Origin: Henricia sp. BOLD:AAB3569
Taxonomy: Eukaryota > Echinodermata > Asteroidea > Spinulosida > Echinasteridae
Assembly (NCBI GenBank): GCA_037783545.1
Contig: JBBELK010001671.1
Span: forward strand, 1-64,000
Direction of reading: 5' to 3'
DNA: 64,000 bases
Below are positions 1 through 64,000 of this stretch, piece after piece (the stretch's first letter is position 1; every line of letters starts with the position of its first letter). The translations under genes were made by a program, and so were the position numbers. Below the pieces are notes generated by a model that did not search any database, was not told the origin of the DNA, and was given only the letters and a program-made list of their open reading frames with translations.

Positions 1-2166
1 ACAGACTTTCGCCGGGAAATGGCAGAGAAATTTCAAAGTTTAGAAAAAACTGGGTTGAGGCTTCCTGACTGCTCTCACGCAAACCGTGGCTGTCTGTACA
101 GCACCTCTTTGGGGTACTCCTGAGTTGTGCGCATGCTCAGTCATTCGGACTGTCGTTAACGCACCGCAGTTTGGCTCGGCAATTTGGTCAAAGTGTGGTC
201 CAAACGTCGGCAAATTTGGAGGTCGAAAAATGTTCCGACGAACTTCAAATTTTGCATGCCCTAAACTCTCTATATTGCGCACTTGTCATAAAAAATTGAC
301 AGACTTTCGCCGGGAAATGGCAGAGAAATTTCAAAGTTTAGAAAAAACTGGGTTGAGGCTTCCTGACTGCTCTCACGCAAACCGTGGCTGTCTGTACACA
401 CCTCTTTGGGGTACTCCTGAGTTGTGCGCATGCTCAGTCATTCGGACTGTCGTTAACGCACCGCAGTTTGGCTCGGCAATTTGGTCAAAGTGTGGTCCAA
501 ACGTCGGCAAATTTGGAGGTCGAAAAATGTTCCGACGAACTTCAAATTTTGCATGCCCTAAACTCTCTATATTGCGCACTTGTCATAAAAAATTGACAGA
601 CTTTCGCCGGGAAATGGCAGAGAAATTTCAAAGTTTAGAAAAAACTGGGTTGAGGCTTCCTGACTGCTCTCACGCAAACCCGTGGCTGTCTGTACACACC
701 TCTTTGGGGTACTCCTGAGTTGTGCGCATGCTCAGTCATTCGGACTGTCGTTAACGCACCGCAGTTTGGCTCGGCAATTTGGTCAAAGTGTGGTCCAAAC
801 GTCGGCAAATTTGGAGGTCGAAAAATGTTCCGACGAACTTCAAATTTTGCATGCCCTAAACTCTCTATATTGCGCACTTGTCATAAAAAATTGACAGACT
901 TTCGCCGGGAAATGGCAGAGAAATATCAAAGTTTAGAAAAAACTGGGTTGAGGCTTCCTGACTGCTCTCACGCAAACCGTGGCTGTCTGTACACACCTCT
1001 TTGGGTGTACTCCTGAGTTGTGCGCATGCTCAGTCATTCGGACTGTCGTTAACGCACCGCAGTTTGGCTCGGCAATTTGGTCAAAGTGTGGTCCAAACGT
1101 CGGCAAATTTGGAGGTCGAAAAATGTTCCGACGAACTTCAAATTTTGCATGCCCTAAACTCTCTATATTGCGCACTTGTCATAAAAAATTGACAGACTTT
1201 CGCCGGGAAATGGCAGAGAAATTTCAAAGTTTAGAAAAAACTGGGTTGAGGCTTCCTGACTGCTCTCACGCAAACCGTGGCTGTCTGTACACACCTCTTT
1301 GGGGTACTCCTGAGTTGTGCGCATGCTCAGTCATTCGGACTGTCGTTAACGCACCGCAGTTTGGCTCGGCAATTTGGTCAAAGTGTGGTCCAAACGTCGG
1401 CAAATTTGGAGGTCGAAAAATGTTCGACGAACTTCAAATTTTGCATGCCCTTAAACTCTCTATATGCGCACTTGTCATAAAAAATTGACAGACTTTCGCC
1501 GGGAAATGGCAGAGAAATTTCAAAGTTTAGACAAAACTGGGTTGAGGCTTCCTGACTGCTCTCACGCAAACCGTGGCTGTCTGTACACACCTCTTTGGGG
1601 TACTCCTGAGTTGTGCGCATGCTCAGTCATTCGGACTGTCGTTAACGCACCGCAGTTTGGCTCGGCAATTTGGTCAAAGTGTGGTCCAAACGTCGGCAAA
1701 TTTGGAGGTCGAAAAATGTTCCGACGAACTTCAAATTTTGCATGCCCTAAACTCTCTATATTGCGCACTTGTCATAAAAAATTGACAGACTTTCGCGGGA
1801 AATGGCAGAGAAATTTCAAAGTTTAGAAAAAACTGGGTTGGAGGCTTCCTGACTGCTCTCACGCAAACCGTGGCTGTCTGTACACACCTCTTTGGGGTAC
1901 TCTGAGTTGTGCGCATGCTCAGTCATTCGGACTGTCGTTAACGCAGCCGCAGTTTGGCTCGGCAATTTGGTCAAAGTGTGGTCCAAACGTCGGCAAATTT
2001 GGAGGTCGAAAAATGTTCCGACGAACTTCAAATTTTGCATGCCCTAAACTCTCTATATTGCGCACTTGTCATAAAAAATGGACAGACTTTCGCCGGGAAA
2101 TGGCAGAGAAATTTCAAAGTTTAGAAAAAACTGGGTTGAGGCTTCCTGACTGCTCTCACGCAAACC
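1..2166. repeat. Left segment: indel-rich, irregular monomers
   Basis: Contains the 85-bp tail of a monomer and units starting at 86, 384, 682, 979, 1277, 1573 and 1870. At least ten single-base indels are private to one monomer each: an extra G in TGTACAGCACC (86), an extra C in AACCCGTGG (unit 384), TTTGGGTGTAC (979), a missing C in ATGTTCGACG, an extra T in GCCCTTAAAC and a missing T in TATATGCGC (unit 1277), TTCGCGGG and GGTTGGAGG (unit 1573), GTACTCTGAG and GCAGCCGCAG (unit 1870). Elsewhere most indels are shared between HOR copies, so this stretch is unusual. Either it reflects poorer consensus quality (for instance near a contig end) or genuinely less homogenised monomers. Some indels compensate in pairs. 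Confidence 0.85.
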
Positions 2167-4546
2167 GTGGCTGTCTGTACACACCTCTTTGGGGTACTCC
2201 TGAGTTGTGCGCATGCTCAGTAATTCGGACTGTCGTTAACGCACCGCAGTTTGGCTCGGCAATTTGGTCAAAGTGTGGTCCAAACGTCGGCAAATTTGGA
2301 GGTCGAAAAATGTTCCGACGAACTTCAAATTTTGCATGCCCTAAACTCTCTATATTGCGCACTTGTCATAAAAAATTGACAGACTTTCGCCGGGAAATGG
2401 CAGAGAAATTTCAAAGTTTAGAAAAAACTGGGTTGAGGCTTCCTGACTGCTCTCACGCAAACCGTGGCTGTCTGTACACACCTCTTTGGGGTACTCCTGA
2501 GTTGTGCGCATGCTCAGTCATTCGGACTGTCGTTAACGCACCGCAGTTTGGCTCGGCAATTTGATCAAAGTGTGGTCCAAACGTCGGCAAATTTGGAGGT
2601 CGAAAAATGTTCCGACGAACTTCAAATTTTGCATGCCCTAAACTCTCTATATTGCGCACTTGTCATAAAAAATTGACAGACATTCGCCAGGAAATGGCAG
2701 AGAAATTTCAAAGTTTAGAAAAAACTGGGTTGAGGCTTCCTGACTGCTCTTACGCAAACCGTGGCTGTCTGTACACACCTCTTTGGGGTACTCCTGAGTT
2801 GTGCGCATGCTCAGTCATTCGGACTGTCGTTAACGCACCGCAGTTTGGCTCGGCAAGTTGGTCAAAGTGTGGTCCAAACGTCGGCAAATTTGGAGGTCGA
2901 AAAATGTTCCGACGAACTTCAAATTTTGCATGCCCTAAACTCTCTATATTGCGCACTTGTCATAAAAAATTGACAGACTTTCGCCTGGAAATGGCAGAGA
3001 AATTTCAAAGTTTCGAAAAAACTGGGTTGAGGCTTCCTGACTGCTCTCACGCAAACCGTGGCTGTCTGTACACACCTCTTTGGGGTACTCCTGAGTTGTG
3101 CGCATGCTCAGTCATTCGGACTGTCGTTAACGCACCGCAGTTTGGCTCGGCAATTTGGTCAAAGTGTGGTCCAAACGTCGGCAAATTTGGAGGTCGAAAA
3201 ATGTTCCGACGAACTTCAAATTTTGCATGCCCTAAACTCTCTATATTGCACACTTGTCATAAAAAAATTGACAGACTTTCGCCGGGAAATGGCAGAGAAA
3301 TTTCAAAGTTTAGAAAAAAACTGGGTTGAGGCTTCCTGACTGCTCTCACGCAAACCGTGGCTGTCTGTACACACCTCTTTGGGGTACTCCTGAGTTGTGC
3401 GCATGCTCAGCCATTCGGACTGTCGTTAACGCACCGCAGTTTGGCTCGGCAATTTGGTCAAAGTGTGGTCCAAGCGTCGGCAAATTTGGAGGTCGAAAAA
3501 TGTTCCGACGAACTTCAAATTTTGCATGCCCTAAACTCTCTATATTGCGCACTTGTCATAAAAAATTGACAGACTTTCGCCGGGAAATGGCAGAGAAATT
3601 TCAAAGTTTAGAAAAAACTGGGTTGAGGCTTCCTGACTGCTCTCACGCAAACCGTGGCTGTCTGTACACACCTCTTTGGGGTACTCCTGAGTTGTGCGCA
3701 TGCTCAGTCATTCGGACTGTCGTTAACGCACCGCAGTTTGGCTCGGCAATTTGGTCAAAGTGTGGTCCAAACGTCGGCAAATTTGGAGGTCGAAAAATGT
3801 TCCGACGAACTTCAAATTTTGCATGCCCTAAACTCTCTATATTGCGCACTTGTCATAAAAAAATTGACAGACTTTCGCCGGGAAATGGCAGAGAAATTTC
3901 AAAGTTTAGAAAAAACTGGGTTGAGGCTTCCTGACTGCTCTCACGCAAACCGTGGCTGTCTGTACACACCTCTTTGGGGTACTCCTGAGTTGTGCGCATG
4001 CTCAGTCATTCGGACTGTCGTTAACGCACCGCAGTTTGGCTCGGCAATTTGGTCAAAGTGTGGTCCAAACGTCGGCAAATTTGGAGGTCGAAAAATGTTC
4101 CGACGAACTTCAAATTTTGCATGCCCTAAACTCTCTATATTGCGCACTTGTCATAAAAAATTGACAGACTTTCGCCGGGAAATGGCAGAGAAATTTCAAA
4201 GTTTAGAAAAAAACTGGGTTGAGGCTTCCTGACTGCTCTCACGCAAACCGTGGCTGTCTGTACACACCTCTTTGGGGTACTCCTGAGTTGTGCGCATGCT
4301 CAGTCATTCGGACTGTCGTTAACGCACCGCAGTTTGGCTCGGCAATTTGGTCAAAGTGTGGTCCAAACGTCGGCAAATTTGGAGGTCGAAAAATGTTCCG
4401 ACGAACTTCAAATTTTGCATGCCCTAAACTCTCTATATTGCGCACTTGTCATAAAAAATTGACAGACTTTCGCCGGGAAATAGCAGAGAAATTTCAAAGT
4501 TTAGAAAAAACTGGGTTGAGGCTTCCTGACTGCTCTCACGCAAATC
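2167..4546. repeat. HOR block alpha, first copy (8 monomers)
   Basis: Units start at 2167, 2464, 2761, 3058, 3357, 3654, 3952 and 4250. Diagnostic variants in order: AGTAATTCGG (2167), GACATTCGCCAGG and TTTGATCAAAG (2464), GGCAAGTTGG with CGCCTGGAAA (2761), a longer A-tract before CTGGG (3058), CAGCCATTCGG (3357), A7 before TTGACAG (3654). Much of the same ordered series recurs at 10802-12586, at an offset of about 8635 bp. Private changes (TTTGATC; CTTACGC at about 2750; TTTCGAAAAA at about 3013; CCAAGCGTCGG in unit 3357) show divergence after duplication. Unit 3952 and part of 4250 no longer match the second copy. Confidence 0.8.
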
Positions 4547-7500
4547 GTGGCTGTCTGTACACACCTCTTTGGGGTACTCCTGAGTTGTGCGCATGCTCAG
4601 TAATTCGGACTGTCGTTAACGCACCGCAGTTTGGCTCGGCAATTTGGTCAAAGTGTGGTCCAAACGTCGGCAAATTTGGAGGTCGAAAAATGTTCCGACG
4701 AACTTCAAATTTTGAATGCCCTAAACTCTCTATATTGCGCACTTGTCATAAAAAATTGACAGACTTTCGCCGGGAAATGGCAGAGAAATTTCAAAGTTTA
4801 GAAAAAACTGGGTTGAGGCTTCCTGACTGCTCTCACGCAAACCGTGGCTGTCTGTACACACCTCTTTGGGGTACTCCTGAGTTGTGCGCATGCTCAGTCA
4901 TTCGGACTGTCGTTAACGTACCGCAGTTTGGCTCGGCAATTTGGTCAAAGTGTTGTCCAAACGTCGGCAAATTTGGAGGTCGAAAAATGTTCCGACGAAC
5001 TTCAAATTTTGCATGCCCTAAACTCTCTATATTGCGCACTTGTCATAACAAAATTGACAGACTTTCGCCGGGAAATGGCAGAGAAATTTCAAAGTTTAGA
5101 AAAAACTGGGTTGAGGCTTCCTGACTGCTCTCACGCAAACCGTGGCTGTCTGTACACACCTCTTTGGGGTACTCCTGAGTTGTGCGCATGCTCAGTCATT
5201 CGGACTGTCGTTAACGCACCGCAGTTTGGCTCGGCAATTTGGTCAAAGTGTGGTCCAAACGTCGGCAAATTTGGAGGTCGAAAAATGTTCCGACGAACTT
5301 CAAATTTTGCATGCCCTAAACTCTCTATATTGCGCACTTGTCATAAAAAATTGACAGACTTTCGCCGGGAAATGGCAGAGAAATTTCAAAGTTTAGAAAA
5401 AACTGGGTTGAGGCTTCCTGACTGCTCTCACGCAAACCGTGGCTGTCTGTACACACCTCTTTGGGGTACTCCTGAGTTGTGCGCATGCTCAGTAATTCGG
5501 ACTGTCGTTAACGCACCGCAGTTTGGCTCGGCAATTTGGTCAAAGTGTGGTCCAAACGTCGGCAAATTTGGAGGTCGAAAAATGTTCCGACGAACTTCAA
5601 ATTTTGCATGCCCTAAACTCTCTATATTGCGCACTTGTCATACAAAATTGACAGACTTTCGCCGGGAAATGGCAGAGAAATTTCAAAGTTTAGAAAAAAC
5701 TGGGTTGAGGCTTCCTGACTGCTCTCACGCAAACCGTGGCTGTCTGTACACACCTCTTTGGGGTACTCCTGAGTTGTGCGCATGCTCAGTCATTCGGACT
5801 GTCGTTAACGCACCGCAGTTTGGCTCGGCAATTTGGTCAAAGTGTTGTCCAAACGTCGGCAAATTTGGAGGTCGAAAAATGTTCCGACGAACTTCAAATT
5901 TTGCATGCCCTAAACTCTCTATATTGCGCACTTGTCATAAAAAATTGACAGACTTTCGCCGGGAAATGGCAGAGAAATTTCAAAGTTTTTAGAAAAAACT
6001 GGGTTGAGGCTTCCTGACTGCTCTCACGCAAACCGTGGCTGTCTGTACACACCTCTTTGGGTACTCCTGAGTTGTGCGCATGCTCAGTCATTCGGACTGT
6101 CGTTAACGCACCGCAGTTTGGTTCGGCAATTTGGTCAAAGTGTGGTCCAAACGTCGGCAAATTTGGAGGTCGAAAAATGTTCCGACGAACTTCAAATTTT
6201 GCATGCCCTAAACTCTCTATATTGCGCACTTGTCATAACAAATTGACAGACTTTCGCCGGGAAATGGCAGAGAAATTTCAAAGTTTAGAAAAAACTGGGT
6301 TGAGGCTTCCTGACTGCTCTCACGCAAACCGTGGCTGTCTGTACACACCTCTTTGGGGTACTCCTGAGTTGTGCGCATGCTCAGTCATTCGGACTGTCGT
6401 TAACGCACCGCAGTTTGGCTCGGCAATTTGGTCAAAGTGTGGTCCAAACGTCGGCAAATTTGGAGGTCGAAAAATGTTCCGACGAACTTCAAATTTTGCA
6501 TGCCCTAAACTCTCTATATTGCGCACTTGTCATAACAAAATTGACAGACTTTCGCCGGGAAATGGCAGAGAAATTTCAAAGTTTAGAAAAAACTGGGTTG
6601 AGGCTTCCTGACTGCTCTCACGCAAACCGTGGCTGTCTGTACACACCTCTTTGGGGTACTCCTGAGTTGTGCGCATGCTCAGTCATTCGGACTGTCGTTA
6701 ACGCACCGCAGTTTGGCTCGGCAATTTGGTCAAAGTGTGGTCCAAACGTCGGCAAATTTGGAGGTCGAAAAATGTTCCGACGAACTTCAAATTTTGCATG
6801 CCCTAAACTCTCTATATTGCGCACTTGTCATAAAAAATTGACAGACTTTCGCCGGGAAATGCAGAGAAATTTCAAAGTTTAGAAAAAACTGGGTTGAGGC
6901 TTCCTGACTGCTCTCACGCAAACCGTGGCTGTCTGTACACACCTCTTTGGGGTACTCCTGAGTTGTGCGCATGCTCAGTAATTCGGACTGTCGTTAACGC
7001 ACCGCAGTTTGGCTCGGCAATTTGGTCAAAGTGTGGTCCAAACGTCGGCAAATTTGGAGGTCGAAAAATGTTCCGACGAACTTCAAATTTTGCATGCCCT
7101 AAACTCTCTATATTGCGCACTTGTCATAAAAAATTGACAGACTTTCGCCGGGAAATGGCAGAGAAATTTCAAAGTTTAGAAAAACTGGGTTGAGGCTTCC
7201 TGACTGCTCTCACGCAAACCGTGGCTGTCTGTACACACCTCTTTGGGGTACTCCTGAGTTGTGCGCATGCTCAGTCATTCGGACTGTCGTTAACGCACCG
7301 CAGTTTGGCTCGGCAATTTGGTCAAAGTGTTGTCCAAACGTCGGCAAATTTGGAGGTCGAAAAATGTTCCGACGAACTTCAAATTTTGCATGCCCTAAAC
7401 TCTCTATATTGCGCACTTGTCATAAAAAATTGACAGACTTTCGCCGGGAAATGGCAGAGAAATTTCAAAGTTTAGAAAAAACTGGGTTGAGGCTTCCTGA

Positions 7501-9300
7501 CTGCTCTCACGCAAACCGTGGCTGTCTGTACACACCTCTTTGGGGTACTCCTGAGTTGTGCGCATGCTCAGTCATTCGGACTGTCGTTAACGCACCGCAG
7601 TTTGGCTCGGCAATTTGGTCAAAGTGTGGTCCAAACGTCGGCAAATTTGGAGGTCGAAAAATGTTCCGACGAACTTCAAATTTTGCATGCCCTAAACTCT
7701 CTATATTGCGCACTTGTCATAACAAATTGACAGACTTTCGCCGGGAAATGGCAGAGAAATTTCAAAGTTTAGAAAAAACTGGGTTGAGGCTTCCTGACTG
7801 CTCTCACGCAAACCGTGGCTGTCTGTACACACCTCTTTGGGGTACTCCTGAGTTGTGCGCATGCTCAGTCATTCGGACTGTCGTTAACGCACCGCAGTTT
7901 GGCTCGGCAATTTGGTCAAAGTGTGGTCCAAACGTCGGCAAATTTGGAGGTCGAAAAATGTTCCGACGAACTTCAAATTTTGCATGCCCTAAACTCTCTA
8001 TATTGCGCACTTGTCATAAAAAAATTGACAGACTTTCGCCGGGAAATGGCAGAGAAATTTCAAAGTTTAGAAAAAACTGGGTTGAGGCTTCCTGACTGCT
8101 CTCACGCAAACCGTGGCTGTCTGTACACACCTCTTTGGGGTACTCCTGAGTTGTGCGCATGCTCAGTAATTCGGACTGTCGTTAACGCACCGCAGTTTGG
8201 CTCGGCAATTTGGTCAAAGTGTGGTCCAAACGTCGGCAAATTTGGAGGTCGAAAAATGTTCCGACGAACTTCAAATTTTGCATGCCCTAAACTCTCTATA
8301 TTGCGCACTTGTCATAAAAAATTGACAGACTTTCGCCGGGAAATGGCAGAGAAATTTCAAAGTTTAGAAAAAACTGGGTTGAGGCTTCCTGACTGCTCTC
8401 ACGCAAACCGTGGCTGTCTGTACACACCTCTTTGGGGTACTCCTGAGTTGTGCGCATGCTCAGTCATTCGGACTGTCGTTAACGCACCGCAGTTTGGCTC
8501 GGCAATTTGGTCAAAGTGTTGTCCAAACGTCGGCAAATTTGGAGGTCGAAAAATGTTCCGACGAACTTCAAATTTTGCATGCCCTAAACTCTCTATATTG
8601 CGCACTTGTCATAAAAAATTGACAGACTTTCGCCGGGAAATGGCAGAGAAATTTCAAAGTTTAGAAAAAACTGGGTTGAGGCTTCCTGACTGCTCTCACG
8701 CAAACCGTGGCTGTCTGTACACACCTCTTTGGGGTACTCCTGAGTTGTGCGCATGCTCAGTCATTCGGACTGTCGTTAACGCACCGCAGTTTGGCTCGGC
8801 AATTTGGTCAAAGTGTGGTCCAAACGTCGGCAAATTTGGAGGTCGAAAAATGTTCCGACGAACTTCAAATTTTGCATGCCCTAAACTCTCTATATTGCGC
8901 ACTTGTCATAACAAATTGACAGACTTTCGCCGGGAAATGGCAGAGAAATTTCAAAGTTTAGAAAAAACTGGGTTGAGGCTTCCTGACTGCTCTCACGCAA
9001 ACCGTGGCTGTCTGTACACACCTCTTTGGGGTACTCCTGAGTTGTGCGCATGCTCAGTCATTCGGACTGTCGTTAACGCACCGCAGTTTGGCTCGGCAAT
9101 TTGGTCAAAGTGTGGTCCAAACGTCGGCAAATTTGGAGGTCGAAAAATGTTCCGACGAACTTCAAATTTTGCATGCCCTAAACTCTCTATATTGCGCACT
9201 TGTCATAAAAAATTGACAGACTTTCGCCGGGAAATGGCAGAGAAATTTCAAAGTTTAGAAAAAACTGGGTTGAGGCTTCCTGACTGCTCTCACGCAAACC
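4547..9300. repeat. 4-monomer HOR domain (~1188 bp period)
   Basis: Unit starts are 4547, 4844, 5142, 5439, 5736, 6035, 6331, 6629, 6925, 7221, 7518, 7815, 8113, 8410, 8707 and 9004. The repeating order is: a monomer with AGTAATTCGG, one with TGTTGTCC, one with CATAACAAATTG, and one plain or with A7. The two clearest copies are 6925-8112 (1188 bp) and 8113-9300 (1188 bp). Earlier versions are irregular: a 3-mer at 4547-5438 and a 5-mer at 5439-6924. That suggests gain and loss of single monomers by unequal exchange. Local oddities include AGTTTTTAGAAA (+2) near 5987, CTTTGGGTAC (-1) in unit 6035, GTTCGGCAA near 6121 and a lost G in GAAATGCAGAG near 6860. Confidence 0.85.
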
Positions 9301-12586: not shown

Positions 12587-13774
12587 GTGGCTGTCTGTAC
12601 ACACCTCTTTGGGGTACTCCTGAGTTGTGCGCATGCTCAGTCATTCGGACTGTCGTTAACGCACCGCAGTTTGGCTCGGCAATTTGGTCAAAGTGTGGTC
12701 CAAACGTCGGCAAATTTGGAGGTCGAAAAATGTTCCGACGAACTTCAAATTGTGCATGCCCTAAACTCTCTATATTGCGCACTTGTCATAAAAAATTGAC
12801 AGACTTTCGCCGGGAAATGGCAGAGAAATTTCAAAGTTTAGAAAAAACTGGGTTGAGGCTTCCTGACTGCTCTCACGCAAACCGTGGCTGTCTGTACACA
12901 CCTCTTTGGGGTACTCCTGAGTTGTGCGCATGCTCAGTCATTCGGACTGTCGTTAACGCACCGCAGTTTGGGTCGGCAATTTGGTCAAAGTGTGGTCCAA
13001 ACGTCGGCAAATTTGGAGGTCGAAAAATGTTCCGACGAACTTCAAATTTTGCATGCCCTAAACCCTCTATATTGCGCACTTGTCATAAAAAATTGACAGA
13101 CTTTCGCCGGGAAATGGCAGAGAAATTTCAAAGTTTAGAAAAAACTGGGTTGAGGCTTCCTGACTGCTCTCACGCAAACCGTGGCTGTCTGTACACACCT
13201 CTTTGGGGTACTCCTGAGTTGTGCGCATGCTCAGTCATTCGGACTGTCGTTAACGCACCGCAGTTTGGCTCGGCAATTTGGTCAAAGTGTGGTCCAAACG
13301 TCGGCAAATTTGGAGGTCGAAAAATGTTCCGACGAACTTCAAATTGTGCATGCCCTAAACTCTCTATATTGCGCACTTGTCATACAAAATTGACAGACTT
13401 TCGCCGGGAAATGGCAGAGAAATTTTAAAGTTTAGAAAAAACTGGGTTGAGGCTTCCTGACTGCTCTCACGCAAACCGTGGCTGTCTGTACACACCTCTT
13501 TGGGGTACTCCTGAGTTGTGCGCATGCTCAGTCATTCGGACTGTCGTTAACGCACCGCAGTTTGGGTCGGCAATTTGGTCAAAGTGTGGTCCAAACGTCG
13601 GCAAATTTGGAGGTCGAAAAATGTTCCGACGAACTTCAAATTTTGCATGCCCTAAACCCTCTATATTGCGCACTTGTCATAAAAAATTGACAGACTTTCG
13701 CCGGGAAATGGCAGAGAAATTTCAAAGTTTAGAAAAAACTGGGTTGAGGCTTCCTGACTGCTCTCACGCAAACC

Positions 13775-20534: not shown

Positions 20535-20537
20535 GAC

Positions 20538-48546: not shown

Positions 48547-49124
48547 GTGGCTGTCTGTACACACCTCTTTGGGGTACTCCTGAGTTGTGCGCATGCTCAG
48601 TCATTCGGACTGTCGTTAACGCACCGCAGTTTGGCTCGGCAATTTGGTCAAAGTGTGGTCCAAACGTCGGCAAAGTTGGAGGTCGAAAAATGTTCCGACG
48701 AACTTCAAATTTTGCATGCCCTAAACTCTCTATATTGCGCACTTGTCATAAAAAATTGACAGACTTTCGCCGGGAAATGGCAGAGAAATTTCAAAGTTTA
48801 GAAAAAACTGGGTTGAGGCTTCCTGACTGCTCTCACGCAAACCGTGGCTGTCTGTACACACCTCTTTGGGGTACTCCTGAGTTGTGCGCATGCTCAGTCA
48901 TTCGGACTGTCGTTAACGCACCGCAGTTTGGCTCGGCAATTTGGTCAAAGTGTGGTCCAAACGTCGGCAAAGTTGGAGGTCGAAAAATGTTCCGACGAAC
49001 TTCAAATTTTGCATGCCCTAAACTCTCTATATTGCGCACTTGTCATAAAAAAATTGACAGACTTTCGCCGGGAAATGGCAGAGAAATTTCAAAGTTTAGA
49101 AAAAACTGGGTTGAGGCTTCCTGA
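43497..49124 (+). other. Longest stop-free frame, 1875 codons, judged non-coding
   Basis: The frame begins in the 70-codon reading phase of unit 43497. It is shifted by that unit's A7 tract into the stop-free 99-codon phase, which stays open through about eighteen monomers. It terminates after another A7 tract shifts the phase at about 49050. The dependence on homopolymer slippage for both entry and exit shows that the length is accidental. Variants inside are mainly amino-acid changing (G to V, R to H, E to D, S to W, F to C). No domain, signal peptide or known family is recognisable. Confidence 0.75.
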
Positions 49125-50627: not shown

Positions 50628-53600
50628 GTGGCTGTCTGTACACACCTCTTTGGGGTACTCCTGAGTTGTGCGCATGCTCAGTCATTCGGACTGTCGTTAA
50701 CGCACCGCAGTTTGGCTCGGCAATTTGGTCAAAGTGTGGTCCAAACGTCGGCAAAGTTGGAGGTCGAAAAATGTTCCGACGAACTTCAAATTTTGCATGC
50801 CCTAAACTCTCTATATTGCGCACTTGTCATAAAAAAATTGACAGACTTTCGCCGGGAAATGGCAGAGAAATTTCAAAGTTTAGAAAAAAAACTGGGTTGA
50901 GGCTTCCTGACTGCTCTCACGCAAACCGTGGCTGTCTGTACACACCTCTTTGGGGTACTCCTGAGTTTTGCGCATGCTCAGTCATTCGGACTGTCGTTAA
51001 CGCACCGCAGTTTGGCTCGGCAATTTGGTCAAAGTGTGGTCCAAACGTCGGCAAATTTGGAGGTCGAAAAATGTTCCGACGAACTTCAAATTTTGCATGC
51101 CCTAAACTCTCTATATTGCGCACTTGTCATAAAAAAATTGACAGACTTTCGCCGGGTAATGGCAGAGAAATTTCAAAGTTTAGAAAAAACTGGGTTGAGG
51201 CTTCCTGACTGCTCTCACGCAAACCGTGGCTGTCTGTACACACCTCTTTGGGGTACTCCTGACTTGTGCGCATGCTCAGTCATTCGGACTGTCGTTAACG
51301 CACCGCAGTTTGGCTGGGCAATTTGGTCAAAGTGTGGTCCAAACGTCGGCAAATTTGGAGGTCGAAAAATGTTCCGACGAACTTCAAATTTTGCATGCCC
51401 TAAACTCTCTATATTGCGCACTTGTCATAAAAAATGGACAGACTTTCGCCGGGAAATGGCAGAGAAATTTCAAAGTTTAGAAAAAACTGGGTTGAGGCTT
51501 CCTGACTGCTCTCACGCAAACCGTGGCTGTCTGTACACACCTCTTTGGGGTACTCCTGAGTTGTGCGCATGCTCAGTCATTCGGACTGTCGTTAACGCAC
51601 CGCAGTTTGGCTCGGCAATTTGGTCAAAGTGTGGTCCAAACGTCGGCAAATTTGGAGGTCGAAAAATGTTCCGACGAACTTCAAATTTTGCATGCCCTAA
51701 ACTCTCTATATTGCGCACTTGTCATAAAAAATTGACAGACTTTCACCGGGAAATGGCAGAGAAATTTCAAAGTTTAGAAAAAACTGGGTTGAGGCTTCCT
51801 GACTGCTCTCACGCAAACCGTGGCTGTCTGTACACACCTCTTTGGGGTACTCCTGAGTTGTGCGCATGCTCAGTCATTCGGACTGTCGTTAACGCACCGC
51901 AGTTTGGCTCGGCAATTTGGTCAAAGTGTGGTCCAAACGTCGGCAAATTTGGAGGTCGAAAAATGTTCCCACGAACTTCAAATTTTGCATGCCCTAAACT
52001 CTCTATATTGCGCACTTGTCATAAAAAATTGACAGACTTTCGCCTGGAAATGGCAGAGAAATTTCAAAGTTTAGAAAAAACTGGGTTGAGGCTTCCTGAC
52101 TGCTCTCACGCAAACCGTGGCTGTCTGTACACACCTCTTTGGGGTACTCCTGAGTTGTGCGCATGCTCAGTCATTCGGACTGTCGTTAACGCACCGCAGT
52201 TTGGCTCGGCAATTTGGTCAAAGTGTGGTCCAAACGTCGGCAAATTTGGAGGTCGAAAAATGTTCCGACGAACTTCAAATTTTGCATGCCCTAAACTCTC
52301 TATATTGCGCACTTGTCATAAAAAATTGACAGACTTTCACCGGGAAATGGCAGAGAAATTTCAAAGTTTAGAAAAAACTGGGTTGAGGCTTCCTGACTGC
52401 TCTCACGCAAACCGTGGCTGTCTGTACACACCTCTTTGGGGTACTCCTGAGTTGTGCGCATGCTCAGTCATTCGGACTGTCGTTAACGCACCGCAGTTTG
52501 GCTCGGCAATTTGGTCAAAGTGTGGTCCAAACGTCGGCAAATTTGGAGGTCGAAAAATTTTCCGACGAACTTCAAATTTTGCATGCCCTAAACTCTCTAT
52601 ATTGCGCACTTGTCATAAAAAATTGACAGACTTTCGCCGGGAAATGGCAGAGAAATTTCAAAGTTTAGAAAAAACTGGGTTGAGGCTTCCTGACTGCTCT
52701 CACGCAAACCGTGGCTGTCTGTACACACCTCTTTGGGGTACTCCTGAGTTGTGCGCATGCTCAGTCATTCGGACTGTCGTTAACGCACCGCAGTTTGGCT
52801 CGGCAATTTGGTCAAAGTGTGGTCCAAACGTCGGCAAATTTGGAGGTCGAAAAATGTTCCGACGAACTTCAAATTTTGCATGCCCTAAACACTCTATATT
52901 GCGCACTTGTCATAAAAAATTGACAGACTTTCGCCGGGAAATGGCAGAGAAATTTCAAAGTTTAGAAAAAAATGGGTTGAGGCTTCCTGACTGCTCTCAC
53001 GCAAACCGTGGCTGTCTGTACACACCTCTTTGGGGTTCTCCTGAGTTGTGCGCATGCTCAGTCATTCGGACTGTCGTTAACGCACCGCAGTTTGGCTCGG
53101 CAATTTGGTCAAAGTGTGGTCCAAACGTCGGCAAATTTGGAGGTCGAAAAATGTTTCGACGAACTTCAAATTGTGCATGCCCTAAACTCTCTATATTGCG
53201 CACTTGTCATAAAAAATTGACAGACTTTCGCCGGGAAATGGCAGAGAAATTTCAAAGTTTAGAAAAAACTGGGTTGAGGCTTCCTGACTGCTCTCACGCA
53301 AACCGTGGTTGTCTGTACAAACCTCTTTGGGGTACTCCTGAGTTGTGCGCATGCTCAGTCATTCGGACTGTCGTTAACGCACCGCAGTTTGGCTCGGCAA
53401 TTTGGTCAAAGTGTGGTCCAAACGTCGGCAAATTTGGAGGTCGAAAAATGTTCCGACGAACTTCAAATTTTGCATGCCCTAAACTCTCTATATTGCGCAC
53501 TTGTCATAAAAAATTGACAGACTTTCGCCGGGAAATGGCAGAGAAATTTCAAAGTTTAGAAAAAACTGGGTTGAGGCTTCCTGACTGCTCTCACGCAAAC

Positions 53601-55086: not shown

Positions 55087-57763
55087 GTGGCTGTCTGTAC
55101 ACACCTCTTTGGGGTACTCCTGAGTTGTGCGCATGCTCAGTCATTCGGACTGTCGTTAACGCACCGCAGTTTGGCTCGGCAATTTGGTCAAAGTGTGGTC
55201 CAAACGTCGGCAAAGTTGGAGGTCGAAAAATGTTCCGACGAACTTCAAATTTTGCATGCCCTAAACTCTCTATATTGCGCACTTGTCATAAAAAAATTGA
55301 CAGACTTTCGCCGGGAAATGGCAGAGAAATTTCAAAGTTTAGAAAAAAAACTGGGTTGAGGCTTCCTGACTGCTCTCACGCAAACCGTGGCTGTCTGTAC
55401 ACACCTCTTTGGGGTACTCCTGAGTTTTGCGCATGCTCAGTCATTCGGACTGTCGTTAACGCACCGCAGTTTGGCTCGGCAATTTGGTCAAAGTGTGGTC
55501 CAAACGTCGGCAAATTTGGAGGTCGAAAAATGTTCCGACGAACTTCAAATTTTGCATGCCCTAAACTCTCTATATTGCGCACTTGTCATAAAAAAATTGA
55601 CAGACTTTCGCCGGGAAATGGCAGAGAAATTTCAAAGTTTAGAAAAAACTGGGTTGAGGCTTCCTGACTGCTCTCACGCAAACCGTGGCTGTCTGTACAC
55701 ACCTCTTTGGGGTACTCCTGACTTGTGCGCATGCTCAGTCATTCGGACTGTCGTTAACGCACCGCAGTTTGGCTGGGCAATTTGGTCAAAGTGTGGTCCA
55801 AACGTCGGCAAATTTGGAGGTCGAAAAATGTTCCGACGAACTTCAAATTTTGCATGCCCTAAACTCTCTATATTGCGCACTTGTCATAAAAAATGGACAG
55901 ACTTTCGCCGGGAAATGGCAGAGAAATTTCAAAGTTTAGAAAAAACTGGGTTGAGGCTTCCTGACTGCTCTCACGCAAACCGTGGCTGTCTGTACACACC
56001 TCTTTGGGGTACTCCTGAGTTGTGCGCATGCTCAGTCATTCGGACTGTCGTTAACGCACCGCAGTTTGGCTCGGCAATTTGGTCAAAGTGTGGTCCAAAC
56101 GTCGGCAAATTTGGAGGTCGAAAAATGTTCCGACGAACTTCAAATTTTGCATGCCCTAAACTCTCTATATTGCGCACTTGTCATAAAAAATTGACAGACT
56201 TTCACCGGGAAATGGCAGAGAAATTTCAAAGTTTAGAAAAAACTGGGTTGAGGCTTCCTGACTGCTCTCACGCAAACCGTGGCTGTCTGTACACACCTCT
56301 TTGGGGTACTCCTGAGTTGTGCGCATGCTCAGTCATTCGGACTGTCGTTAACGCACCGCAGTTTGGCTCGGCAATTTGGTCAAAGTGTGGTCCAAACGTC
56401 GGCAAATTTGGAGGTCGAAAAATGTTCCCACGAACTTCAAATTTTGCATGCCCTAAACTCTCTATATTGCGCACTTGTCATAAAAAATTGACAGACTTTC
56501 GCCTGGAAATGGCAGAGAAATTTCAAAGTTTAGAAAAAACTGGGTTGAGGCTTCCTGACTGCTCTCACGCAAACCGTGGCTGTCTGTACACACCTCTTTG
56601 GGGTACTCCTGAGTTGTGCGCATGCTCAGTCATTCGGACTGTCGTTAACGCACCGCAGTTTGGCTCGGCAATTTGGTCAAAGTGTGGTCCAAACGTCGGC
56701 AAATTTGGAGGTCGAAAAATGTTCCGACGAACTTCAAATTTTGCATGCCCTAAACTCTCTATATTGCGCACTTGTCATAAAAAATTGACAGACTTTCACC
56801 GGGAAATGGCAGAGAAATTTCAAAGTTTAGAAAAAAATGGGTTGAGGCTTCCTGACTGCTCTCACGCAAACCGTGGCTGTCTGTACACACCTCTTTGGGG
56901 TACTCCTGAGTTGTGCGCATGCTCAGTCATTCGGACTGTCGTTAACGCACCGCAGTTTGGCTCGGCAATTTGGTCAAAGTGTGGTCCAAACGTCGGCAAA
57001 TTTGGAGGTCGAAAAATTTTCCGACGAACTTCAAATTTTGCATGCCCTAAACTCTCTATATTGCGCACTTGTCATAAAAAATTGACAGACTTTCGCCGGG
57101 AAATGGCAGAGAAATTTCAAAGTTTAGAAAAAACTGGGTTGAGGCTTCCTGACTGCTCTCACGCAAACCGTGGCTGTCTGTACACACCTCTTTGGGGTAC
57201 TCCTGAGTTGTGCGCATGCTCAGTCATTCGGACTGTCGTTAACGCACCGCAGTTTGGCTCGGCAATTTGGTCAAAGTGTGGTCCAAACGTCGGCAAATTT
57301 GGAGGTCGAAAAATGTTCCGACGAACTTCAAATTTTGCATGCCCTAAACACTCTATATTGCGCACTTGTCATAAAAAATTGACAGACTTTCGCCGGGAAA
57401 TGGCAGAGAAATTTCAAAGTTTAGAAAAAAATGGGTTGAGGCTTCCTGACTGCTCTCACGCAAACCGTGGCTGTCTGTACACACCTCTTTGGGGTTCTCC
57501 TGAGTTGTGCGCATGCTCAGTCATTCGGACTGTCGTTAACGCACCGCAGTTTGGCTCGGCAATTTGGTCAAAGTGTGGTCCAAACGTCGGCAAATTTGGA
57601 GGTCGAAAAATGTTTCGACGAACTTCAAATTGTGCATGCCCTAAACTCTCTATATTGCGCACTTGTCATAAAAAATTGACAGACTTTCGCCGGGAAATGG
57701 CAGAGAAATTTCAAAGTTTAGAAAAAACTGGGTTGAGGCTTCCTGACTGCTCTCACGCAAACC
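55087..57763. repeat. 15-monomer HOR, partial copy 2 (9 monomers)
   Basis: Units 55087, 55387, 55685, 55982, 56279, 56576, 56873, 57170 and 57467 reproduce 50628-53304 in order. I see two substitutions in about 2677 bp: CGGGTAATGG in copy 1 (near 51157) versus CGGGAAATGG, and A6-CTGGG versus A7-TGGG (near 56832). Copy 2 then skips the K monomer and continues with Q at 57764. The following part is replaced by the 5-mer domain. Confidence 0.87.
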
Positions 57764-60700
57764 GTGGCTGTCTGTACACACCTCTTTGGGGTACTCCTGA
57801 GTTGTGCGCATGCTCAGTCATTCGGACTGTCGTTAACGCACCGCAGTTTGGCTCGGCAATTTGGTCAAAGTGTGGTCCAAACGTCGGCAAAGTTGGAGGT
57901 CGAAAAATGTTCCGACGAACTTCAAATTTTGCATGCCCTAAACTCTCTATATTGCGCACTTGTCATAAAAAAATTGACAGACTTTCGCCGGGAAATGGCA
58001 GAGAAATTTCAAAGTTTAGAAAAAACTGGGTTGAGGCTTCCTGACTGCTCTCACGCAAACCGTGGCTGTCTGTACACACCTCTTTGGGGTACTCCTGAGT
58101 TGTGCGCATGCTCAGTCATTCGGACTGTCGTTAACGCACCGCAGTTTGGCTCGGCAATTTGGTCAAAGTGTGGTCCAAACGTCGGCAAATTTGGAGGTCG
58201 AAAAATGTTCCGACGAACTTAAAATTTTGCATGCCCAAAACTCTCTATATTGCGCACTTGTCATAAAAAATTGACAGACTTTCGCCGGGAAATGGCAGAG
58301 AAATTTCAAAGTTTAGAAAAAAATGGGTTGAGGCTTCCTGACTGCTCTCACGCAAACCGTGGCTGTCTGTACACACCTCTTTGGGGTACTCCTGAGTTGT
58401 GCGCATGCTCAGTCATTCGGACTGTCGTTAACGCACCGCAGTTTGGCTCGGCAATTTGGTCAAAGTGTGGTCCAAACGTCGGCAAATTTGGAGGTCGAAA
58501 AATGTTCCAACGAACTTCAAATTTTGCATGCCCTAAACTCTCTATATTGCGCACTTGTCATAAAAAATTGACAGACTTTCGCCGGGAAATGGCAGAGAAA
58601 TTTCAAAGTTTAGAAAAAACTGGGTTGAGGCTTCCTGACTGCTCTCACGCAAACCGTGGCTGTCTGTACACACCTCTTTGGGGTACTCCTGAGTTGTGCG
58701 CATGCTCAGTCATTCGGACTGTCGTTAACGCACCGCAGTTTGGCTCGGCAATTTGGTCAAAGTGTGGTCCAAACGTCGGCAAATTTGGAGGTCGAAAAAT
58801 GTTCCGACGAACTTCAAATTGTGCATGCCCTAAACTCTCTATATTGCGCACTTGTCATAAAAAATTGACAGACTTTCGCCGGGAAATGGCAGAGAAATTT
58901 CAAAGTTTAGAAAAAACTGGGTTGAGGCTTCCTGACTGCTCTCACGCAAACCGTGGCTGTCTGTACACACCTCTTTGGGGTACTCCTGAGTTGTGCGCAT
59001 GCTCAGTCATTCGGACTGTCGTTAACGCACCGCAGTTTGGCTCGGCAATTTGGTCAAAGTGTGGTCCAAACGTCGGCAAATTTGGAGGTCGAAAAATGTT
59101 CCGACGAACTTAAAATTTTGCATGCCCTAAACTCTCTATATTGCGCACTTGTCATAAAAAATTGACAGACTTTCGCCGAGAAATGGCAGAGAAATTTCAA
59201 AGTTTAGAAAAAACTGGGTTGAGGCTTCCTGACTGCTCTCACGCAAACCGTGGCTGTCTGTACACACCTCTTTGGGGTACTCCTGAGTTGTGCGCATGCT
59301 CAGTCATTCGGACTGTCGTTAACGCACCGCAGTTTGGCTCGGCAATTTGGTCAAAGTGTGGTCCAAACGTCGGCAAAGTTGGAGGTCGAAAAATGTTCCG
59401 ACGAACTTCAAATTTTGCATGCCCTAAACTCTCTATATTGCGCACTTGTCATAAAAAATTGACAGACTTTCGCCGGGAAATGGCAGAGAAATTTCAAAGT
59501 TTAGAAAAAACTGGGTTGAGGCTTCCTGACTGCTCTCACGCAAACCGTGGCTGTCTGTACACACCTCTTTGGGGTACTCCTGAGTTGTGCGCATGCTCAG
59601 TCATTCGGACTGTCGTTAACGCACCGCAGTTTGGCTCGGCAATTTGGTCAAAGTGTGGTCCAAACGTCGGCAAATTTGGAGGTCGAAAAATGTTCCGACG
59701 AACTTAAAATTTTGCATGCCCAAAACTCTCTATATTGCGCACTTGTCATAAAAAATTGACAGACTTTCGCCGGGAAATGGCAGAGAAATTTCAAAGTTTA
59801 GAAAAAAATGGGTTGAGGCTTCCTGACTGCTCTCACGCAAACCGTGGCTGTCTGTACACACCTCTTTGGGGTACTCCTGAGTTGTGCGCATGCTCAGTCA
59901 TTCGGACTGTCGTTAACGCACCGCAGTTTGGCTCGGCAATTTGGTCAAAGTGTGGTCCAAACGTCGGCAAATTTGGAGGTCGAAAAATGTTCCAACGAAC
60001 TTCAAATTTTGCATGCCCTAAACTCTCTATATTGCGCACTTGTCATAAAAAATTGACAGACTTTCGCCGGGAAATGGCAGAGAAATTTCAAAGTTTAGAA
60101 AAAACTGGGTTGAGGCTTCCTGACTGCTCTCACGCAAACCGTGGCTGTCTGTACACACCTCTTTGGGGTACTCCTGAGTTGTGCGCATGCTCAGTCATTC
60201 GGACTGTCGTTAACGCACCGCAGTTTGGCTCGGCAATTTGGTCAAAGTGTGGTCCAAACGTCGGCAAATTTGGAGGTCGAAAAATGTTCCGACGAACTTC
60301 AAATTGTGCATGCCCTAAACTCTCTATATTGCGCACTTGTCATAAAAAATTGACAGACTTTCGCCGGGAAATGGCAGAGAAATTTCAAAGTTTAGAAAAA
60401 ACTGGGTTGAGGCTTCCTGACTGCTCTCACGCAAACCGTGGCTGTCTGTACACACCTCTTTGGGGTACTCCTGAGTTGTGCGCATGCTCAGTCATTCGGA
60501 CTGTCGTTAACGCACCGCAGTTTGGCTCGGCAATTTGGTCAAAGTGTGGTCCAAACGTCGGCAAATTTGGAGGTCGAAAAATGTTCCGACGAACTTAAAA
60601 TTTGCATGCCCTAAACTCTCTATATTGCGCACTTGTCATAAAAAATTGACAGACTTTCGCCGAGAAATGGCAGAGAAATTTCAAAGTTTAGAAAAAACTG

Positions 60701-63700
60701 GGTTGAGGCTTCCTGACTGCTCTCACGCAAACCGTGGCTGTCTGTACACACCTCTTTGGGGTACTCCTGAGTTGTGCGCATGCTCAGTCATTCGGACTGT
60801 CGTTAACGCACCGCAGTTTGGCTCGGCAATTTGGTCAAAGTGTGGTCCAAACGTCGGCAAATTTGGAGGTCGAAAAATGTTCCGACGAACTTAAAATTTT
60901 GCATGCCCTAAACTCTCTATATTGCGCACTTGTCATAAAAAATTGACAGACTTTCGCCGAGAAATGGCAGAGAAATTTCAAAGTTTAGAAAAAACTGGGT
61001 TGAGGCTTCCTGACTGCTCTCACGCAAACCGTGGCTGTCTGTACACACCTCTTTGGGGTACTCCTGAGTTGTGCGCATGCTCAGTCATTCGGACTGTCGT
61101 TAACGCACCGCAGTTTGGCTCGGCAATTTGGTCAAAGTGTGGTCCAAACGTCGGCAAATTTGGAGGTCGAAAAATGTTCCGACGAACTTAAAATTTTGCA
61201 TGCCCTAAACTCTCTATATTGCGCACTTGTCATAAAAAATTGACAGACTTTCGCCGAGAAATGGCAGAGAAATTTCAAAGTTTAGAAAAAACTGGGTTGG
61301 GGCTTCCTGACTGCTCTCACGCAAACCGTGGCTGTCTGTACACACCTCTTTGGGGTACTCCTGAGTTGTGCGCATGCTCAGTCATTCGGACTGTCGTTAA
61401 CGCACCGCAGTTTGGCTCGGCAATTTGGTCAAAGTGTGGTCCAAACGTCGGCAAATTTGGAAGTCGAAAAATGTTCCGACGAACTTAAAATTTTGCATGC
61501 CCTAAACTCTCTATATTGCGCACTTGTCATAAAAAATTGACAGACTTTCGCCGAGAAATGGCAGAGAAATTTCAAAGTTTAGAAAAAACTGGGTTGAGGC
61601 TTCCTGACTGCTCTCACGCAAACCGTGGCTGTCTGTACACACCTCTTTGGGGTACTCCTGAGTTGTGCGCATGCTCAGTCATTCGGACTGTCGTTAACGC
61701 ACCGCAGTTTGGCTCGGCAATTTGGTCAAAGTGTGGTCCAAACGTCGGCAAATTTGGAGGTCGAAAAATGTTCCGACGAACTTCAAATTTTGCATGCCCT
61801 AAACTCTCTGTATTGCGCACTTGTCATAAAAAATTGACAGACTTTCGCCGGGAAATGCAGAGAAATTTCAAAGTTTAGAAAAAAATGGGTTGAGGCTTCC
61901 TGACTGCTCTCACGCAAACCGTGGCTGTCTGTACACACCTCTTTGGGGTACTCCTGAGTTGTGCGCATGCTCAGTCATTCGGACTGTCGTTAACGCACCG
62001 CAGTTTGGCTCGGCAATTTGGTCAAAGTGTGGTCCAAACGTCGGCAAATTTGGAGGTCGAAAAATGTTCCGACGAACTTCAAATTTTGCATGCCCTAAAC
62101 TCTCTATATTGCGCAGTTGTCATAAAAAATTGACAGACTTTCGCCGGGAAATGGCAGAGAAATTTCAAAGTTTAGAAAAAACTGGGTTGAGGCTTCCTGA
62201 CTGCTCTCACGCAAACCGTGGCTGTCTGTACACACCTCTTTGGGGTACTCCTGAGTTGTGCGCATGCTCAGTCATTCGGACTGTCGTTAACGCACCGCAG
62301 TTTGGCTCGGCAATTTGGTCAAAGTGTGGTCCAAACGTCGGCAAAGTTGGAGGTCGAAAAATGTTCCGACGAACTTCAAATTTTGCATGCCCTAAACTCT
62401 CTATATTGCGCACTTGTCATAAAAAATTGACAGACTTTCGCCGGGAAATGGCAGAGAAATTTCAAAGTTTAGAAAAAACTGGGTTGAGGCTTCCTGACTG
62501 CTCTCACGCAAACCGTGGCTGTCTGTACACACCTCTTTGGGGTACTCCTGAGTTGTGCGCATGCTCAGTCATTCGGACTGTCGTTAACGCACCGCAGTTT
62601 GGCTCGGCAATTTGGTCAAAGTGTGGTCCAAACGTCGGCAAATTTGGAGATCGAAAAATGTTCCGACGAACTTAAAATTTTGCATGCCCAAAACTCTCTA
62701 TATTGCGCACTTGTCATAAAAAATTGACAGACTTTCGCCGGGAAATGGCAGAGAAATTTTAAAGTTTAGAAAAAAATGGGTTGAGGCTTCCTGACTGCTC
62801 TCACGCAAACCGTGGCTGTCTGTACACACCTCTTTGGGGTACTCCTGAGTTGTGCGCATGCTCAGTCATTCGGACTGTCGTTAACGCACCGCAGTTTGGC
62901 TCGGCAATTTGGTCAAAGTGTGGTCCAAACGTCGGCAAATTTGGAGGTCGAAAAATGTTCCAACGAACTTCAAATTTTGCATGCCCTAAACTCTCTATAT
63001 TGCGCACTTGTCATAAAAAATTGACAGACTTTCGCCGGGAAATGGCAGAGAAATTTCAAAGTTTAGAAAAAACTGGGTTGAGGCTTCCTGACTGCTCTCA
63101 CGCAAACCGTGGCTGTCTGTACACACCTCTTTGGGGTACTCCTGAGTTGTGCGCATGCTCAGTCATTCGGACTGTCGTTAACGCACCGCAGTTTGGCTCG
63201 GCAATTTGGTCAAAGTGTGGTCCAAACGTCGGCAAATTTGGAGGTCGAAAAATGTTCCGACGAACTTCAAATTGTGCATGCCCTAAACTCTCTATATTGC
63301 GCACTTGTCATAAAAAATTGACAGACTTTCGCCGGGAAATGGCAGAGAAATTTCAAAGTTTAGAAAAAACTGGGTTGAGGCTTCCTGACTGCTCTCACGC
63401 AAACCGTGGCTGTCTGTACACACCTCTTTGGGGTACTCCTGAGTTGTGCGCATGCTCAGTCATTCGGACTGTCGTTAACGCACCGCAGTTTGGCTCGGCA
63501 ATTTGGTCAAAGTGTGGTCCAAACGTCGGCAAATTTGGAGGTCGAAAAATGTTCCGACGAACTTAAAATTTTGCATGCCCTAAACTCTCTATATTGCGCA
63601 CTTGTCATAAAAAATTGACAGACTTTCGCCGAGAAATGGCAGAGAAATTTCAAAGTTTAGAAAAAACTGGGTTGAGGCTTCCTGACTGCTCTCACGCAAA

Positions 63701-64000
63701 CCGTGGCTGTCTGTACACACCTCTTTGGGGTACTCCTGAGTTGTGCGCATGCTCAGTCATTCGGACTGTCGTTAACGCACCGCAGTTTGGCTCGGCAATT
63801 TGGTCAAAGTGTGGTCCAAACGTCGGCAAATTTGGAGGTCGAAAAATGTTCCGACGAACTTAAAATTTTGCATGCCCTAAACTCTCTATATTGCGCACTT
63901 GTCATAAAAAATTGACAGACTTTCGCCGAGAAATGGCAGAGAAATTTCAAAGTTTAGAAAAAACTGGGTTGGGGCTTCCTGACTGCTCTCACGCAAACCG
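57764..64000. repeat. 5-monomer HOR domain (~1485 bp), last round expanded to ten
   Basis: Order: Q 57764, T' 58062, N 58359 (TTCCAACG), G 58656, T 58953 (CGCCGAG); Q 59250, T' 59547, N 59844, G 60141, T 60438, T 60734, T 61031, T 61328, plain 61625, plain 61921; Q 62218, T' 62515, N 62812, G 63109, T 63406, T 63703. Q-T'-N-G-T recurs after 1485-1486 bp and again after 2968 bp. The second round carries four consecutive T monomers and two plain ones. T units share ACTTAAAATT and CGCCGAG; 61031 and 63703 also share GTTGGGGCT. 62515 is altered (GGAGATCG, AAATTTTAAAG). The array continues past the window. Confidence 0.87.

Follow-up and report, generated by a model that had tools for sequence, protein, structure and literature searches.

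In the alpha-satellite arrays of primates one higher-order repeat (HOR) is repeated many times in tandem, and AthCEN178 of Arabidopsis reportedly forms variable-length local HORs. Within an alpha-satellite HOR, monomers are about 50-70% alike (PMC8122249, PMC8997354). HOR block sizes of the Brachypodium satellites CentBd/CentBs are described as varying greatly and following a negative exponential distribution (PMC10910784), and variable-length local HORs are also known from Palv156, whose similarity drops with distance, and from non-centromeric Salicaceae arrays (PMC12046899). In the Drosophila ananassae subgroup, pericentromeric satellites that are recent, TE-poor and built of 99-411 bp monomers have HOR structure (PMC11917152). 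Models of unequal exchange and break-induced replication, in which neighbouring monomer sets are duplicated into HORs, are set out mainly for alpha satellite (PMC8997354); measured against them, the array described here would stand early in the process, after roughly 1-4 events per monomer.

The window, that is the whole stretch of 64,000 nucleotides from the sea star Henricia sp. analysed here, is a non-coding 297-bp satellite array. TRF reported one array with a period of 297 and 215.3 copies spanning 1-64000, and wraparound alignment resolved 216 full or partial monomers, all in the same orientation. These carry 126 distinct variants, or 1.92 per monomer, and have a mean pairwise identity of 98.77% over all monomers. 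Neither inserted foreign DNA nor a strand switch was found anywhere in the 64,000-nt window, and no sub-repeat indicating a dimer origin was seen inside the 297-bp monomer, where the highest self-identity at any shift was 31%. The array is head-to-tail, homogenised and non-coding, as is complex long-monomer satellite DNA. An exact 25-base monomer core was absent from collections of viral contigs and genome contigs, and an 893-base query of the array had no match among phages or plasmids. In the literature, two sequence strings from the array matched no paper, and the matches to a '297 bp' satellite were a mitogenome length, a retroelement and, judged by their listing, Dracaena organelle genomes.

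The non-coding character was observed directly. A coding gene array of the DUF371 type is an exceedingly improbable reading of the repeat, despite the facts that the first forward frame of the consensus runs through 99 codons without a stop and that Pfam DUF371 was matched on three tandem copies (29.8 bits, cut-off 25; E = 6.6e-7). The DUF371 score rose with copy number, from 14.1 bits (E 0.048) for one copy in its best phase to 19.3 bits for two. Among first-order Markov sequences, 15% have an open frame in one or more of the six. The frame is kept in 132 of 215 monomers and broken in the other 83 (54 frameshifted, 29 with a stop). The 96 substitutions comprise 20 silent, 69 replacement and 7 stop changes, in line with the shares of 23%, 72% and 5% expected in the absence of constraint. 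NCBIfam and PDB searches of the translation gave no match below E 0.1. For most copies a coding array is refuted; the DUF371 score lies below the cut-off with one copy and with two. A 5S rDNA or other RNA gene array was ruled out for the bases searched, with no Rfam match up to E = 1 in bases 1-2000 and no tRNA detected by ARAGORN in bases 1-3000.

Along the array, blocks of several monomers recur in nearly identical form (Table 1). With singleton variants dropped, 17 block pairs were significant compared to 0.21 per monomer-order shuffle, and with all variants kept there were 12 compared to 0.13 (300 shuffles each); the array thereby has HORs in the loose sense of a block of at least two monomers recurring with few differences, a definition that follows the TRASH settings minhor 2 and maxdiv 5 (as in PMC12046899) and was judged by our own block test. 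The block score was capped per monomer, since without a cap one variant-rich monomer alone could score and raise the null. Blocks are 3-17 monomers long and recur at 11 different lags, all between 3 and 29 monomers; at lags 3, 4, 5, 9, 15 and 17, variant sharing reached z = 7.7 to 11.4 (all variants, 300 shuffles). Two copies exist of 14 of the 17 significant blocks and three copies of the remaining 3, and 59 of the 216 monomers lie outside every significant block. The pair with the longest range was significant with singletons dropped and below threshold with all variants kept; another block pair (4759-7729) lies between its copies.

Table 1. Coordinates of the satellite array and of its recurring blocks.
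Feature	Position	Strand	Lag	Score	Identity	Remark
Single head-to-tail array, 297-bp satellite monomer	1..64000	+				216 full or partial copies
17-monomer tandem duplication	23502-28554 / 28555-33604	+	5053 bp	89		31 shared variants
15-monomer spacing	50543-53219 / 55002-57678	+	4459 bp	47	99.85%	9 of 15 monomers match
6-monomer tandem duplication	43710..47273	+	1782 bp	39	99.94%	length = lag
9-monomer spacing	38658..43411	+	2674 bp	35	99.95%	7 monomers match
Three-copy block family, 5-/10-/15-monomer spacings	57679..63914	+	1485, 2968, 4454 bp	21, 27, 20		
9-monomer spacing	13690..17857	+	2679 bp	24	99.46%	more diverged copy
3-monomer repeat	48759..50840	+	892 bp	19		
4-monomer repeat	19047..21719	+	1188 bp	15		
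4-monomer repeat	33009..35093	+	1191 bp	15		
5-monomer spacing, irregular	4759..7729	+	1487 bp	15		marker TGTTGTCC
Longest-range pair	2082-3866 / 10717-12501	+	29 monomers (8635 bp)	19	99.44%	
Lag-23 pair	40441-41331 / 47274-48164	+	23 monomers	19		
Lag-21 pair	42818-44006 / 49057-50245	+	21 monomers	15		
Lag-17 pair	47571-48758 / 52626-53813	+	17 monomers	17		
Lag-21 pair	27663-28554 / 33903-34795	+	21 monomers	14		

Identity between copies, measured for 10 of the 17 pairs, was 99.44-100%, with eight of these pairs at 99.83-100% and the lowest values in the 29-lag pair and the left 9-lag pair. Because the identities are graded in this way, the block pairs differ in age. The two copies of the 17-monomer block, whose length also equals its lag, show 8 differences, of which 1 is a substitution, and are 99.92% identical once a deletion of 4 bases in monomer 110 is disregarded. 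This preponderance of indels would suit an assembly error, with reads or haplotypes falsely duplicated or mis-joined, as the source of some near-identical neighbouring blocks, as would monomers 0-6, which resemble unpolished sequence in that 10 of their 12 private variants are indels, compared to 4 of 38 elsewhere. Such an artefact is nevertheless very unlikely, given that 11 lags, graded divergence over the pairs measured and a nested order of blocks are unlike the product of one mis-join.

The diagnostic motifs were located where the initial annotation had placed them, four confined to one domain each and two recurring far apart. TGTTGTCC occurs six times within 4951-10308, at irregular successive spacings of 3, 5, 4, 3 and 3 monomers, and AAATTAACAG, the marker of the 4-monomer repeat at 19047..21719, three times within 19932-22011 (19932, 21120 and 22011), the third of these lying three monomers beyond the second. 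GCACGCC was found eight times within 25538-32374 and CAAAGTTGG 11 times within 43621-62342. The two scattered motifs are AATTGTGC, with 21 occurrences in 12.7-22.3 kb and 40.1-63.3 kb, and CGCCTGG, with six. All eight spacings that had been predicted (892, 1188, 1485, 1782, 2674, 2679, 4459 and 5053 bp) are among the significant block pairs. As for the proposed division into adjoining HOR domains, regional blocks and several coexisting repeat lengths are present, but the domains overlap and nest instead of tiling the array cleanly, and one lag does not equal one domain because lags 4, 5, 9, 15, 17 and 21 each occur in two places.

The parallel with alpha satellite that had been drawn is a loose one. 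Near-identical multi-monomer blocks do recur, and the 99.44-100% identity of the block copies measured falls within the 97-100% of alpha-satellite HOR copies. In contrast, the monomers lack the divergence found within an alpha-satellite HOR, and each block has two or three copies instead of many. With two copies in 14 of 17 blocks and nearly identical monomers, the blocks are therefore block duplications and not HORs of the alpha-satellite kind. The core pattern of the CENP-B box, as generally known, matched the monomer consensus only with two mismatches. Many mammalian clades lack this box (PMC8997354).

CentBd/CentBs, Palv156, the non-centromeric Salicaceae arrays and AthCEN178 resemble the present array in combining highly similar monomers with many HOR block sizes and, in the case of Palv156, in similarity that drops with distance. 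The likeness is one of description, with the monomer here being 297 bp and the comparison covering 64 kb. The likeness to the satellites of the Drosophila ananassae subgroup is likewise one of description. Many HOR lengths do coexist in the window, as had been pointed out, although such coexistence was already described (PMC10910784). Comparable HORs being published for plant and fly satellites, the array is a clear case of known repeat-array evolution and not a new type of element.

The recurrence of variants far apart, AATTGTGC among them, had been read as local homogenisation with occasional long-range exchange. Combined with a steady state, which is our addition, this reading is unlikely. 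Eight of the 59 substitutions seen at least twice recur across gaps of more than 30 monomers, and neighbour sharing exceeds the background in the full set of pairs separated by more than 30 monomers (0.087 vs 0.033). Across the actual gaps of those eight substitutions, however, 37 of 839 neighbours were shared, a fraction of 0.044 compared to a shifted background of 0.052. Sites with two different alternative bases numbered 9, compared to 9.3 expected by chance, and therefore some recurrence of the same base is to be expected too. Local-only simulations, fitted for this comparison with no long-range statistic, yielded on average 13.3 (unequal exchange) and 7.7 (conversion) far-recurring variants vs the 8 observed. 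When long-range events were added with the parameters of the local-only fit reused, eight or fewer such variants were still common at 2% long-range events (24-46% of runs) and at 5% (10-18%), but at 10% were obtained in only 1.3% (unequal exchange) and 3.7% (conversion) of runs. No block pair above the 29-monomer lag (8.6 kb) reached the threshold within the 64 kb, the best score at lags above 30 being 9.2 vs a limit of 14. This absence weighs little, because 11-22% of runs with 10% long-range events show no far block pair either, compared to 26-39% of local-only runs. Under these models long-range exchange would not be needed for the observed variation; a small share may have occurred, and 10% fits poorly.

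The steady-state part of that reading was addressed by simulation. The window holds 95 distinct substitutions, 36 of them singletons, numbers attained by none of the high-turnover runs with 2500-monomer arrays, either at 8-16 events per monomer (98 mean-matched runs) or at 16-40 (131 runs). A small steady-state simulation gave 12-49 distinct variants (20 final runs, not all of them matched in mean), and because these were too few a non-equilibrium model was adopted. The variation, as observed directly, is star-like (Tajima-type D = -2.41), and substitutions per monomer are near Poisson (mean 1.57, variance 1.36). Star-like variation is also expected if selection holds monomers near the consensus, and the simulations assumed neutrality. 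They also assumed events evenly spread; the mean number of substitutions per monomer varies along the array, being 1.03 in monomers 0-35 and 2.06 in monomers 144-179, and the process was therefore not uniform.

Starting from a uniform array and with local events only, simulations came near the observed distinct variants, singletons, blanks, lag curve and block number. In each of the four model variants, the best-fit runs had an excess of distinct variants (means 106-120 vs 95) and of singletons (41-55 vs 36), and their best block score was too low (58-66 vs 92). Of the histories simulated, the one that would fit best starts from a near-uniform founder array and adds roughly 1-4 block events per monomer. 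The median fitted mean event was about 6-8 monomers, roughly 2 kb, with a range to about 9 kb, and the 10-90% range of mean event size was 3-9 monomers for unequal exchange and 3-18 for conversion. Refitting without the long-range statistics gave geometric means of 5.0-18.4 and 3.5-24.1 monomers, respectively (10-90%), block size being less certain once these statistics are left out. Homogenisation over tracts of roughly 1-5 kb, as suggested in the initial annotation, agrees with the fitted event sizes and with the largest block, 17 monomers or 5.05 kb.

We consider it likely that the window is explained by a near-uniform founder array in which blocks were copied locally. As the simulations suggest, the founder would have been an array of one monomer sequence, ancestral to at least these 64 kb, in which about 1.6 substitutions per monomer have since gathered. 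Copying of blocks of several monomers, at most 17, would have stayed local, reaching to about 9 kb, and would have happened roughly 1-4 times per monomer; the block structure and its local range are themselves seen directly in the monomer order. With each copying event, variants that happened to lie together would become a short-lived HOR, mostly of two copies, which later events would overwrite or split.

General knowledge of recombination points to an out-of-register pathway as the most likely agent, either unequal sister-chromatid exchange or break-induced replication with template slip, and we give this pathway about an even chance. In-register gene conversion, in which a block overwrites a near block while array length stays constant, would change the agent only, and is a somewhat less probable but serious alternative. 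Conversion fits the summary statistics comparably or slightly better, with a mean distance over the best 30 runs of 0.17 vs 0.20 for unequal exchange, and supplies 66 of the 100 best runs. The 17- and 6-monomer blocks, in which length equals lag, are as expected of fresh tandem duplication, from which the 17/17 and 6/6 matches arise directly, though conversion produced such matches nearly as often in simulation. Length equal to lag does not separate the two, being observed in 2 of 5 long pairs and expected at 0.285 under conversion and 0.306 under unequal exchange, and about the same register-shift counts are predicted by both models.

Tentatively, and with somewhat less confidence than we place in an out-of-register agent, the array may be regarded as a snapshot of HOR birth, a young near-uniform satellite after roughly 1-4 purely local rounds of block exchange per monomer, in which single duplication events, with their sizes and their order, can still be read; in older arrays this record is expected to be overwritten. 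If this reading is true, homogenising events in a satellite could be measured for size and range before saturation, and longer-range exchange within 64 kb would be limited, roughly and under these models, to about 10% at most. Motifs common to distant parts of an array need not mean exchange between them, since recurrent mutation can suffice.

A single tandem array of a 297-bp unit spans the whole window (64,000 bases). Wraparound alignment resolved it into 216 monomers, full or partial and all on one strand, and yielded 126 distinct variants (56 of them singletons), with 1.92 variants per monomer relative to the consensus and a mean pairwise identity between monomers of 98.77%. The maximum per monomer was six variants, so that other DNA is not inserted in the array. 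The largest recurring length variant is a 7-base insertion common to monomers 31 and 34, numbered from 0 along the window (9216-10419; unit positions ~199-200). CpG is not depleted in the monomer (16 observed vs 16.0 expected), CpG transitions are scarce (5 distinct in 1-64000) and the distinct substitutions comprise 54 transversions and 42 transitions, G:C to T:A changes being numerous (24). This CpG content and substitution spectrum hint at little germline CpG methylation.

No RNA genes were found in the searched part of the array, a coding repeat was rejected, and the matches to the CENP-B box core in the consensus all had two mismatches. Pfam DUF371 scored 29.8 bits on three tandem monomers (38361-39251), above the cut-off, with two monomers (19.3) and one (14.1) below it, a pattern that calls for caution in family searches on tandem repeats.

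The initial annotation had described regional higher-order repeats (HORs). Its six diagnostic variant motifs were located where it had placed them, and its eight predicted spacings were all present, exact to the base, among the significant block pairs, i.e., multi-monomer runs recurring elsewhere in the array. Variant sharing at lags (spacings between copies) of 3, 4, 5, 9, 15 and 17 monomers gave z values of 7.7 to 11.4 against 300 order shuffles of the monomers, all variants included. With the score capped per monomer and the 95% shuffle limit as threshold, 12 block pairs reached the limit when all variants were kept (0.13 expected) and 17 when singleton variants were dropped (0.21 expected). 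The lags of these 17 were 3, 4, 5, 6, 9, 10, 15, 17, 21, 23 and 29 monomers; block pairs touched 157 of the 216 monomers, and 59 were in none.

Copies were counted where the score passed 40% of a block's self-score. Two copies were present for 14 blocks of the 17 and three copies for the other three, which form one family at 57.7-63.9 kb. At the 15-monomer and 9-monomer spacings the match covers only part of their length. Identity was measured for 10 of the 17 pairs, after manual re-coding of monomers 110 and 203, and ranged from 99.44 to 100% between copies vs 98.77% over all monomer pairs. The lag-29 pair, above threshold only with singletons dropped, has another block pair between its copies and, given also its divergence, the block structure is layered.

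Coordinates and character of selected blocks
Feature	Position	Character	Basis
17-monomer block	23502-33604	complete tandem duplication	block length = lag
6-monomer block	43710-47273	complete tandem duplication	block length = lag
lag-29 pair	2082-3866 / 10717-12501	most diverged of ten measured pairs	

The copying agent could be in-register block conversion or unequal exchange. Summary statistics were slightly in favour of conversion without separating the two models, and neither did the long blocks, two of five having a length equal to their lag (expected share 0.306 under unequal exchange and 0.285 under conversion). We tentatively favour out-of-register recombination, because complete tandem duplications arise from it directly and because it is a standard route (reviewed in PMC8997354).

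Occasional long-range exchange had also been proposed. Within the 64-kb window, no block pair at a lag above 30 monomers reached the shuffle limit (best 9.2 vs 14). Of the simulated local-only runs, 26% under unequal exchange and 39% under conversion lacked far block pairs, and their absence alone argues only weakly, because 11% and 22%, respectively, of runs at 10% long-range events lacked them too. Among 59 substitutions occurring at least twice, eight had a gap above 30 monomers; across these gaps neighbours had 37 variants in common over 839 comparisons (0.044) vs 0.052 at shifted positions, which does not support copied blocks. When neighbours were compared more loosely, for every pair separated by more than 30 monomers, sharing was in excess (0.087 vs 0.033), a comparison that takes in pairs within one variant-sharing region. 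Sites with two alternative bases numbered nine vs 9.3 expected under uniform hits, so some same-base recurrence is expected from mutation alone. Local-only runs fitted to all statistics produced on average 9.4 far-recurring variants under unequal exchange and 7.5 under conversion; fitted without the long-range statistics, the means were 13.3 (10-90%: 4-28) and 7.7 (10-90%: 3-13). At 2%, 5% and 10% long-range events (300 simulated runs each), eight or fewer such variants were obtained in 24%, 10% and 1.3% of unequal-exchange runs and in 46%, 18% and 3.7% of conversion runs. Since copied blocks left no sign and local-only runs yield comparable far-recurring variants, the data do not require long-range exchange; a share of a few per cent is possible, and 10% fits poorly.

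Private variants in monomers 0-6 (1-2081) were indels in 10 of 12 cases, compared with 4 of 38 elsewhere (Fisher p 5e-6); this left ~2 kb looks like unpolished read sequence and is perhaps the contig end. Over 2082-64000, private substitutions were enriched at the left, with 21 in monomers 7-59 vs 13 in 60-215 (p 8e-6). Substitutions per monomer ranged from a minimum of 1.03 in monomers 0-35 to a maximum of 2.06 in 144-179. Block turnover is perhaps lower at the left of the array and higher at the right.

HORs of highly variable size, following a negative exponential distribution, are described in Brachypodium centromeres (PMC10910784), and HORs are also reported from recently emerged 99-411 bp satellites in the Drosophila ananassae subgroup (PMC11917152). 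Palv156 monomers of Salicaceae are reported to form HORs with similarity declining with distance, and HORs alone do not prove a centromeric role, because non-centromeric Salicaceae arrays carry them too (PMC12046899). Alpha satellite is described as having divergent monomers within each HOR (PMC8122249, PMC8997354), unlike this array.

The history was simulated from a uniform starting array with neutral, local block events only (10,000 runs, 3,146 of them near the observed mean). With geometric sizes, the fitted mean block was 5.8 monomers (10-90%: 3.3-8.8) under unequal exchange and 8.0 (10-90%: 3.2-18) under conversion; across four model variants, median events per monomer were 1.1-2.2 (10-90% ranges 0.5-4.6). 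These simulations came close to the data, imperfectly, giving 106-120 distinct variants vs 95 observed, 41-55 singletons vs 36, and a best block score of 58-66 vs 92. A small steady-state simulation was rejected, as its distinct variants were too few (12-49; 20 runs). Of 1,728 runs on arrays 2,500 monomers long, the 710 whose mean matched were retained; among these, at least 95 distinct substitutions were found in 98%, 83% and 40% of runs at 0.5-1, 1-2 and 2-4 events per monomer, and in 5%, 0% and 0% at 4-8, 8-16 and 16-40. Tajima-type D across monomers was -2.41, a descriptive value since monomers are non-independent. A simple reading of these models is that a near-uniform founder array would have undergone only few rounds of local exchange.
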